Assembly (NCBI GenBank): GCA_937918935.1
Contig: CAKZSI010000035.1
Location: 1-32,624 of the forward strand
Direction of reading: 5' to 3'
Length of the DNA stretch: 32,624 bases
DNA from: an uncultured Chloroflexales bacterium
GTDB taxonomy: Bacteria > Chloroflexota > Chloroflexia > Chloroflexales > Chloroflexaceae
Each line of letters opens with the position of its first letter. The stretch's first letter is position 1. The translations under genes and the position numbers were made by a program. Below the pieces are notes generated by a model, which saw only the letters and a program-made list of their open reading frames with translations, was not told the DNA's origin and ran no database searches. Shown piece by piece: positions 15,921 through 22,016 of the stretch.

Positions 15921-16002
15921 TCTGAAGTATTGCAACGTGTAACATTACGGCCGGAGCGTGGCGCCCTCTGGTGACCTGCCGGTGCGCAACAAAGGTGCCG
16001 CC

Positions 16003-16587
16003 GTGGCTGCAATCAGAATCCTGATCGCCGAAGATAACGATCTGGTCTCGCTCACCCTTGAGGAGCAACTTAAGGGCCTGGGGTACGACGTCATCGGCAT
16101 CGCCCATTCGGGTGCAGAAGCCGTGAGTCTTGCCGGGCGCCTCCGGCCCGACCTGATCATCATGGATATTCGCATGCCCGAGATGGAGGGCACAGAAGCC
16201 GCCAATCGCATCCGCGAGATTTATCCCGTTCCGATCATCATGCTGACGGCCTATGCCGACAAAGAGACGATTAAAAAGGCCGAGGCCGCCGGTGCGCTGG
16301 CCTATCTGGTGAAACCGGTCAACGAGAACGAACTGCCCCCGGCGATCAACATCGCCCTGGCGCGCTTCCGCGAGATCCAGGCCCTGCGCCACCAGGTCAG
16401 CGAGTTGGAAGAGTCGCTGGAGGCGCGCAAGCTCATCGAGCGCGCCAAGGGCATTCTGATGCAACGCCTGGGCCTCAACGAACGCGACGCTTACGAGCGC
16501 CTGCGCCAGCGCGCCCGTGACAAGCGCGCCAAGATGAAGGATATCGCCCAGGCGATCATCGAAGCCGAAGAATTGCTGGGCCAGTGA
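16003..16587 (+). CDS. ANTAR-domain response regulator
   Basis: A 194-residue protein combining a receiver domain (1-120; acidic EDN, phospho-acceptor Asp55 in IIMDIRMPEMEG, switch Thr in MLTAYAD, Lys in LVKPVN) with a coiled linker and an ANTAR RNA-binding domain (about 138-192; LIERAKGILMQRLGLNERDAYERLR). ANTAR proteins such as AmiR, EutV and PdtaR bind paired RNA hairpins with hexanucleotide loops and prevent transcription termination. The GTG at 16003 with AAGGTG upstream is preferred; an in-frame GTG at 15958 is possible. Its target is unknown. It stands immediately upstream of the attenuator-like leader of aroH, though that leader shows no obvious paired six-base loops. Confidence 0.92.
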   Translation: MAAIRILIAEDNDLVSLTLEEQLKGLGYDVIGIAHSGAEAVSLAGRLRPDLIIMDIRMPEMEGTEAANRIREIYPVPIIMLTAYADKETIKKAEAAGALAYLVKPVNENELPPAINIALARFREIQALRHQVSELEESLEARKLIERAKGILMQRLGLNERDAYERLRQRARDKRAKMKDIAQAIIEAEELLGQ

Positions 16588-16590
16588 GCC

Positions 16591-16619
16591 TTGACGGAAT
16601 CCGCCGCCTGTGCTATAGT
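16591..16619 (+). promoter_or_regulatory. Promoter of the aroH-aroF leader
   Basis: TTGACG (16591-16596), a 17-base spacer and TATAGT (16614-16619) preceded by TGC (extended -10). This is close to the sigma-70 consensus. Transcription should start near 16626, four bases after the ANTAR stop has been passed by the -35. Confidence 0.75.
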
Positions 16620-16656
16620 CGCCGCAGCGAAGGGTAATAAAAGGGTCAGTCGCCAT

Positions 16657-16740
16657 ATGGCGCAGCGAGTCCAGAGCTTTTATCGCTACTTTTATTACTT
16701 TACCGGCCCACATATGGCCTGGTTGCTTCGCACTGTCTAG
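16657..16740 (+). CDS. Phe/Tyr-rich leader peptide
   Basis: A 27-residue frame, ATG to TAG, beginning MAQRVQS; codons 8-15 read FYRYFYYF (three Phe, four Tyr), and the end reads MAWLLRTV. It starts about 31 bases after the predicted transcription start. The ribosome site AAAGGG ends 11 bases before the ATG and is weak; the ATG lies in the palindrome CGCCATATGGCG (16651-16662). The position between a near-consensus promoter and a hairpin before aromatic amino acid genes marks it as a probable regulatory leader rather than a functional protein. No homologue can be named, as leader peptides are not conserved in sequence. Confidence 0.7.
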   Translation: MAQRVQSFYRYFYYFTGPHMAWLLRTV

Positions 16741-16772
16741 ACCTACCATCGGTTACTATAGACAACTCGTAC

Positions 16773-16805
16773 AGAGGGCGTGAAGCACCAGGCTTCACGC
16801 CCTCT
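16773..16805 (+). terminator. Terminator-like hairpin of the attenuator
   Basis: AGAGGGCGTGAAGC and GCTTCACGCCCTCT pair perfectly over 14 bp with the loop ACCAG. It lies 32 bases after the leader stop codon and 31 bases before aroH. The bases after it (CTGCTTGTGCG) are only mildly T-rich, so termination may be weak or helped by another factor. Confidence 0.65.
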
Positions 16806-16836
16806 CTGCTTGTGCGCCATAGCAGGGAGGCCAGCT

Positions 16837-17238
16837 ATGACCGTTCGGTGTCGCGGTGTCCGCGGAGCAACCACGTGCGAGGACAATACGCGTGAGGCCA
16901 TCCTTGCGGCCACCCGCGAGTTGCTCGAGTTGCTCATCGAGCGCAACGGGATTCACGTTGACGACGTCGCCAGCGCCATCTTCACTACCACCCCCGATCT
17001 GAATGCTGAGTTTCCCGCCGTGGCCGCCCGCGCCATTGGCTGGACGGACACGGCCCTGCTCTGTGGTCACGAGATGGATGTGCCCGGCAGCCTGCGCGGT
17101 TGTATTCGCGTGCTCATCCACTGGAACACCGAGCGCCGCCCCGACGAGATTGTGCATGTGTACATCAAGGGCGCCCAGAACCTGCGCCCCGATCGGAATG
17201 CCGCCATGGCGGCCTTTCAACCGCCGCCCGGGGTCTAA
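16837..17238 (+). CDS. aroH: Chorismate mutase, AroH class
   Basis: A 133-residue monofunctional chorismate mutase that converts chorismate to prephenate, the branch point to Phe and Tyr. It is of the trimeric Bacillus AroH type, not the helical AroQ type. Active-site residues of B. subtilis AroH have visible equivalents: Arg6 in [10 protein letters not shown], Arg65, Glu79 in CGHEMDV, Arg91 in LRGCIRVL, Tyr109 in HVYIKGA and Arg117 in LRPDR. GGAGG precedes the ATG by six bases. It is the first structural gene after the attenuator-like leader, followed by DAHP synthase. Confidence 0.95.
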
Positions 17239-17271
17239 ATCCGCAGTTTTCTTGCCTTCAGTTGGGTGCGC

Positions 17272-17347
17272 GGGCGTCCCGCCCACCCACGCGCCGAGGT
17301 AGGGGCGGTTCACGAACCTCCTCTACTGGCGGGCCTGCCACCCGCCA
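17272..17347. repeat. Intergenic hairpins between aroH and aroF
   Basis: GGGCG-TCC-CGCCC (17272-17284) and TGGCGGG/CCCGCCA with a seven-base loop (17327-17347). Between them is AGGTAGGGGCGG, similar to bases after holA at 22960. These may be repeats or partial terminators within the operon. Confidence 0.45.
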
Positions 17348-17482
17348 CAGCTACCATTGAGATGGATCCAGGGGAGGCATGTGATGAGTCCCCAACCAAC
17401 CACCACCAGGACTGTGCTGCGGCCGGTGTCGCCGCCCGTGCTCGACCAGCGCTTCGTTGTAACAGGAGAAGGAGTTGAGGCC

Positions 17483-18499
<1,017 letters not shown>

Positions 18500-21751: not shown

Positions 21752-21810
21752 CGTCACTTGCGTAACGCCCCTGAGCGTGGTAGGATCAGGCCATCCCTGA
21801 CCGCCCGTGG

Positions 21811-21885
21811 GTGGGTATGTGTTTTGAGCCAACACGGTTTCGATGGGAGCCTTGCTCTCACGAGTTGAGCTATGCGGCGGGCCGC
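21811..21885 (-). other. tRNA-like sequence fragment
   Basis: Read on the minus strand, GCCGCATAGCTCAACTCGTGAGAGCA looks like the 5' end and D-arm of a tRNA (GCTC/GAGC stem; the loop has CG in place of the invariant GG), followed by a GTGTT/AACAC stem-loop in the place of a T-arm. No anticodon stem or matching acceptor 3' strand can be drawn. It may be a decayed tRNA or chance; the 21752-22016 gap holds no gene. Confidence 0.2.
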
Positions 21886-22016
21886 AGATGCTCACAGGCG
21901 GGCACCCACCTGCGCTCCGCAGGTTCGAAACAGGCTCACTCACGGCGGGTCGGGGAGCACTGCGGTGTGGAACGGTCGGGCATTACAGCCCTTCGCACCG
22001 CCATCCGTCCATCGTC

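Follow-up and report, generated by a model that had tools for sequence, protein, structure and literature searches.

A type I chorismate mutase gene (aroH) in an uncultured Chloroflexales bacterium is preceded by a short reading frame crowded with Phe and Tyr codons and by an inverted repeat, which raises the question of how transcription of this gene and of the DAHP synthase gene downstream of it is controlled. The whole stretch of DNA that was analysed, called the window here, comprised 32,624 nucleotides (GenBank assembly GCA_937918935.1, contig CAKZSI010000035.1). A sequence-only reading of it had proposed attenuation of the aroH operon by a ribosome translating the short frame. It was concluded that the element very probably controls the aroH-DAHP synthase operon by ribosome-mediated transcription attenuation, with Phe and Tyr as the sensed amino acids; perhaps Trp is also sensed in some lineages. 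Translation of the leader, termination and the response to amino acids were deduced from the architecture of the element and its conservation.

Promoter, leader frame and genes of the aroH operon

The features of the locus are collected in Table 1. Direct reading of the window confirmed the near-consensus promoter that had been placed ahead of the leader, with TTGACG at -35 (16591-16596), a 17-nt spacer and TATAGT at -10 (16614-16619). It was the only promoter-like site found on the forward strand in 16400-17450. The promoter was also conserved upstream of related leaders: the strict pattern TTGAC-N16-18-TAT--T preceded 57 of 79 leaders (0.2 expected from shuffles), and a loose pattern preceded 64 of them (2.1 expected), with a spacer of 17 in 59 of these 64.

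Table 1. Positions of the promoter, leader segments and proposed regulated genes in the window.
Feature	Position	Strand	Basis
Sigma-70-type promoter TTGACG-17-TATAGT, TGC directly before -10	16591-16619	+	Read in the sequence; conserved in relatives
Putative transcription start (A), 7 nt past -10	16626	+	Deduced from promoter position
Segment A (GCGAAG), complementary to CTTCGC within B	16627-16632	+	Pairs with B in the predicted full-leader fold
GTAATAAAAG, perfect complement of CTTTTATTAC (16689-16698, in the Phe/Tyr codons)	16634-16643	+	Reading, predicted fold, alignment
Leader ORF, 27 codons, MAQRVQSFYRYFYYFTGPHMAWLLRTV	16657-16740	+	Phe/Tyr run at codons 8-15; similar frame in relatives
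Segment B CTGGTTGCTTCGC in the final leader codons, 5' half of the antiterminator	16719-16731	+	B:C pairing, swap test, codon bias
Segment C, terminator 5' arm AGAGGGCGTGAAGC	16773-16786	+	C:D covariation
Segment D, terminator 3' arm GCTTCACGCCCTCT, ending at 16805, followed by the first letters of the weak T-rich tail	16792-16810	+	C:D covariation, T profile
aroH, chorismate mutase type I, proposed regulated gene	16837-17238	+	Pfam PF07736, E 3.4e-46
DAHP synthase, proposed second regulated gene	17384-18499	+	Pfam PF00793, E 3.9e-82 on ORF 17357-18499

Two further elements of the sequence-only reading were found in the window exactly as it had described them. The leader frame runs from the ATG at 16657-16659 to the TAG at 16738-16740, its codons 8-15 reading FYRYFYYF. 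The hairpin before aroH consists of two arms (16773-16786 and 16792-16805) that are perfect 14-bp complements around the loop ACCAG. The weak ribosome site of the leader, which had been named as a caveat, proved to be real (-4.7 kcal/mol in the window). The median ribosome-site energy was -3.3 for leaders versus -8.6 for aroH, and sites at or below -5 kcal/mol were found at 31.6% of 79 leaders, 15.8% of control positions and 90% of aroH starts. The letters at 16634-16643, which are complementary to part of the codon run, were identical in the loci L002-L004.

The regulated genes had been taken to encode the two prephenate-pathway enzymes, and Pfam indeed identified chorismate mutase and DAHP synthase downstream of the leader. 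The start of the DAHP synthase gene was picked by eye as the ATG following AGGGGAGG, and the gene most likely begins there. Among the attenuator loci on named contigs, 39 of 42 had a DAHP synthase gene on the same strand within 3.2 kb after aroH, and in the remaining three the available sequence stops within 82, 618 and 1316 nt. These 42 loci were the called ones, or copies of called ones, among the best 80 of 241, with L091 (see below) excluded. In the distant member L062, the ORFs after aroH were a prephenate dehydratase, two DAHP synthases, one without a Pfam match and a prephenate dehydrogenase; those in L069 included a DAHP synthase, a prephenate dehydrogenase and an EPSP synthase.

Two observations of a different kind were made on gene structure. 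In L069 (4965-6413), aroH forms part of a 482-residue ORF, the other ~350 residues of which had no Pfam match (E<=0.001). In the window, a 6S RNA gene was detected at 21791-21960 on the forward strand (Rfam RF00013, 55.6 bits, gathering threshold 46.4). It overlaps the beginning of the ORF for DNA polymerase III delta as set mechanically (start at 21843). The Pfam match of this ORF begins only at residue 61, and the true start of the gene is therefore probably downstream of 21843.

Occurrence of the leader in Chloroflexota

The nearest aroH relatives of the window were found in Chloroflexaceae and in other Chloroflexota MAGs and isolates (best 80 of 241 loci), and a phylum-wide search detected the aroH family in 222 of 400 genomes. 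The loci compared were the best 80 of 241 on named contigs together with 80 stretches from the phylum-wide matches listed; the latter were chosen by eye, mostly one per genus, and were drawn from the better-scoring families. Removal of duplicates and of regions shorter than 150 nt reduced 188 aroH loci to 169, and then to 168 when L097 was dropped, an artefact in which the wrong stretch had been taken from a contig beginning at aroH.

The element was called where a leader ORF with at least five F, Y or W in 10 codons was followed by a GC-rich hairpin with a T-rich tail. This rule called an aromatic leader ORF with such a hairpin in 80 of the 168 aroH upstream regions, so that the Phe/Tyr frame, for which relatives were to be checked, was found to be kept in them together with the hairpin. 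The same rule called 0 of 507 dinucleotide shuffles and 1 of 504 when the shuffling was repeated, and on the reverse strands it called 0 of 168. The other 88 regions, many of them in other families or phyla, were without the element by this rule. Two regions with a leader recognizable by eye were missed, namely L011, in which the 5' arm of the hairpin is missing, and L021, in which the aroH start was set inside the hairpin. L091 was called, was judged by eye to be a chance match and was left out of the counts of 79. Since some loci are nearly the same (L035/L036, L007-L009), the counts do not represent independent events.

In the 80 genus-sampled stretches, the element occurred in 13 of 35 Chloroflexota families among the matches listed, with L160 as the sole, and weaker, call in family f43; the families in which it was not called included f5 (0/8) and f24 (0/10). 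When 61 genomes were searched at the DNA level, 22 had matches at E<=1.3e-8. A covariance model of 92 positions was built from 38 leaders, whose genomes it matches by construction. Within the order, 48 of 82 genomes had a match at E<=1e-7; within the family, the figure was 37 of 41. No second copy of the element scored below 5.7e-4 with this model in any of the 82 genomes.

The commonest residues of the 79 leaders were Phe (14.3%) and Tyr (10.6%). At least two F and at least one Y were present in 77 of the 79, and Trp occurred in the aromatic cluster of 30. Leaders of other genes were sought in close relatives, at fixed offsets first and then with starts located by tblastn. No comparable leader was found upstream of prephenate dehydratase in 29 close relatives at three settings or upstream of anthranilate synthase in 30 at two settings; at the loosest Trp setting, anthranilate synthase gave 2/30 versus 3/150 shuffles.

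The leader RNA might instead be bound by an ANTAR-domain response regulator encoded upstream, which would control the terminator in the manner of ANTAR antiterminators and make the Phe/Tyr frame incidental. The targets of ANTAR proteins are two hexaloop hairpins overlapping a terminator. A response regulator of this kind is encoded at 15958-16587 on the forward strand (Pfam) and ends 3 nt before the promoter, and an ANTAR homologue was found upstream of aroH in 14 of the best 80 of 241 loci. However, the leader was kept where the local stretch shows no ANTAR homologue, for example in L038 and L041 (named copies of L015 and L012, respectively), L047, L049 and L068, and the Phe/Tyr codon run was kept from Chloroflexaceae to distant families. 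Control by the ANTAR protein was considered very unlikely.

Pairing of the leader segments

Pairing was studied in an alignment of 38 Chloroflexales-type leaders, which did not include L025, L117, L118 or any of the divergent leaders found outside the order. The T and G of the leader start codon were invariant in all 38. The proposed check of C:D covariation in relatives gave a clear result, with the terminator stem covarying strongly: 98.6% of the cells were paired, and 8 of the 14 pairs were changed on both sides. Double changes were found in 49 cells versus 13.2 +/- 2.7 in shuffles, and 0 of 500 shuffles reached so high a number. The number of C:D pair types did not exceed that in shuffles (15 vs 15.1). 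Close to the end of the stem, 72 of the 79 leaders had at least five T within 8 nt, compared with at most four in the window, where the poor U-tract conceded by the sequence-only reading is real; a scan for consensus terminators called none at the window hairpin.

One leader, L011 (G001:C383), and its named copy L033 had the leader, the codon run and B; the terminator 5' arm and loop were absent, and the 3' arm remained. The gap may be a natural deletion, which would make expression constant, or may have arisen when the inverted repeat was collapsed during assembly.

The ability of B to pair either with A or with the 5' arm of the hairpin had been proposed, and both complementarities can be read in the window. 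B complements the terminator 5' arm and loop (16780-16791); this duplex contains one bulge and one G.U pair. The B:C pairing was above shuffles at p<=0.05 in 57 of 80 leaders, and 90.7% of its cells were paired across the 38 aligned leaders. Double changes occurred in 12 cells versus 5.7 +/- 1.6 in shuffles, and the number of B:C pairs with double changes was matched by 116 of 500 shuffles. Covariation of B:C within Chloroflexales is modest because B is nearly invariant and tolerates changes in C through G.U pairs.

The phylum-wide swap test was applied after omission of L067, L051, L103 and L160 as unusual leaders; the remaining 75 were thinned to 55 non-redundant ones by k-mer similarity. 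Matched B and C paired better than swapped ones (z -10.1), and six controls with shuffled B gave z from -2.2 to +0.5. In L160, the B:C pairing had p 0.33. The B:C stem, which was also to be sought in relatives, is backed by the pairing in 38 leaders and by the swap tests, with covariation itself being modest. A possible small hairpin (TGTCT ... AGACA) was observed between B and C at 16734-16766 on the forward strand of the window and was also visible in many Chloroflexaceae rows of the alignment. It would lie inside the antiterminator loop.

The same data bear on the explanation that the hairpin is an ordinary terminator or an RNA-processing site and that the product of the small frame is an aromatic-rich peptide with a function of its own, apart from attenuation. 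In favour of this explanation, an AWSLRTV-like peptide tail is conserved within the order, and the T-run is weak in the window. Against it, the hairpin lies downstream of the operon promoter and ahead of the first gene. Where the tail motif is present (36 leaders), the Leu codon was CTT in 32 and the next codon was CGC in 31; such near-fixed synonymous sites would be expected under selection on the RNA if B pairs with C. Outside the order, the Phe/Tyr run, the hairpin and the B:C complementarity remain although the peptide tail differs. This explanation was judged highly improbable. A T-box or an amino-acid riboswitch sensing tRNA or a metabolite directly was given next to no weight: a terminator/antiterminator pair upstream of amino-acid genes would suit it, but the conserved features are codons and simple stems, and none of the Rfam 15 covariance models, T-box included, reached its gathering threshold at the site (E<=10 gave two unrelated matches, at 7.8 and 9.4).

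A stem between A and B was also considered as a general feature of the attenuator. In the window, A:B pairing did not differ from that in shuffles (p 0.47), and only 10 of 80 leaders reached p<=0.05 in the shuffle test. Duplex tests by segment gave 4/63 for the first 25 nt, 12/78 for the 25 nt directly preceding the codon run and 12/78 for the whole stretch. The swap test gave z -4.6 for A:B versus -1.5 to -3.8 in six controls with shuffled A and -2.9 with reversed B; for the last 30 nt, z was -5.9 versus -2.0 to -3.5 in controls. The pairing was thus near chance against shuffles, and its swap excess was only partly above that of the composition controls; because this support is only partial, A:B is not claimed as general. 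In L058, L062, L065, L078 and L088, which lie outside the order, the segment just before the codon run was seen by eye to complement B, and a protector stem may exist in some lineages.

Proposed mechanism and relation to known attenuators

In the proposed mechanism, scarcity of charged tRNA-Phe or tRNA-Tyr would stall the ribosome in the codon run and leave B free. Free B would pair with C before D is made, and RNA polymerase would read into aroH. With an ample supply of these amino acids, the ribosome would reach the stop codon, 6 nt past B, and cover B; the C:D hairpin would then form and terminate transcription.

The mechanism was examined by folding the transcript to the end of the hairpin loop, i.e. 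before D, in 64 leaders with an assigned start. Ribosomes were represented in silico by masks of an assumed footprint, and B:C was counted as formed if the mean over the B core was >0.4. B:C was predicted in 40 of 64 leaders without a ribosome, in 52 with a ribosome on the Phe/Tyr codons and in 12 with a ribosome at the stop codon. The difference between the latter two values fits the earlier proposal that a stalled ribosome favours the antiterminator and a ribosome at the stop codon favours the terminator. Exceptions were found on both sides: in 12 of the 64 leaders, including L024 and L069, B:C remained <0.4 despite the stalled ribosome, and in 12, including L062 and L142, B:C was still predicted with the ribosome at the stop codon. 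B ends 22 nt before the stop in L062 and 13 nt before it in L142.

The part of the earlier proposal in which A:B makes termination the default without translation was not generally supported: A:B was near chance in the shuffle tests, and without a ribosome the fold gives B:C in the 40 leaders mentioned above. B was paired with upstream sequence at >0.4 without a ribosome in 13 of 64 leaders. Because B:C is so often predicted without a ribosome, termination probably needs active translation of the leader and not an A:B protector.

In the trp attenuator of Escherichia coli, the stalled ribosome chooses between a 2:3 antiterminator and a 3:4 terminator, and B:C and C:D correspond to these two structures. 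Unlike in the trp attenuator, B lies inside the leader ORF just before the stop codon (in the window and most close relatives), and a general protector stem of the 1:2 type is not established here. The enteric pheA and pheST leaders, which control Phe biosynthesis, have a short Phe-rich leader peptide with a terminator and an antiterminator. The aroH leader shares the short Phe-rich peptide and the terminator/antiterminator pair with them but differs in its mixed Phe/Tyr codons (with Trp in 30 of the 79 clusters), in its targets aroH and DAHP synthase, in its occurrence in Chloroflexota and in having no Rfam match.

Classical attenuators have been predicted in Actinobacteria for trp, trpS, leuS, ilvB and cys targets (PMC1262725). 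They likewise combine a leader peptide with a terminator outside Proteobacteria, and aroH and DAHP synthase are not among the targets named in its abstract (PMC1262725). In a 2010 survey, leader peptides were stated to have been shown, to its authors' knowledge, only in Proteobacteria and Actinobacteria, and Firmicutes were added; for the histidine leader peptides of Firmicutes, the authors consider a convergent origin (PMC2965389). These histidine leaders also represent leader-peptide attenuation but concern another amino acid, other genes and another phylum, and the available portion of the text contains no mention of Chloroflexus, Roseiflexus, Herpetosiphon, aroH or aroF (PMC2965389). A 2013 survey that included a Chloroflexi group relied on Rfam models among which no Phe leader was yet present, and its authors suggested that amino-acid attenuators had originated in gamma-proteobacteria (PMC3766115). 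Two structured RNA candidates obtained by comparison are the pheA motif of Actinobacteria and the Chloroflexi-1 RNA of Chloroflexus aggregans (PMC2864571). The pheA motif is near a Phe gene judging by its name and has no Rfam accession in the table of that source; Chloroflexi-1 is given there as RF01698, and no such match was obtained at the aroH site.

In the literature searched, no attenuator of this kind was found for Chloroflexota; novelty is provisional, since the 2010 survey of Lopatovskaya and colleagues could list one. On this provisional basis, and judging from sequence comparison, the element appears to be a new family of a known kind, a well-conserved Phe/Tyr leader-peptide attenuator in a phylum with none found described. 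As a tentative suggestion, which may well prove wrong, a pooled-aromatic attenuator could have arisen within Chloroflexota itself, with no sequence relationship to the Phe and Trp leaders of Proteobacteria. A single peptide would then read the charging of the Phe, Tyr and, in some lineages, Trp tRNAs together and set entry into the whole aromatic pathway, with termination dependent on leader translation and without a protector stem.

The attenuator proposed here would extend classical leader-peptide attenuation to Chloroflexota. Its breadth, 13 of 35 families among the matches listed, is wide enough to reveal which parts of such an attenuator are retained in evolution: this holds for the codon run, B:C and C:D but not clearly for A:B. 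The proposed mechanism also provides a testable prediction of how the synthesis of aromatic amino acids may be controlled in Chloroflexus and its relatives.
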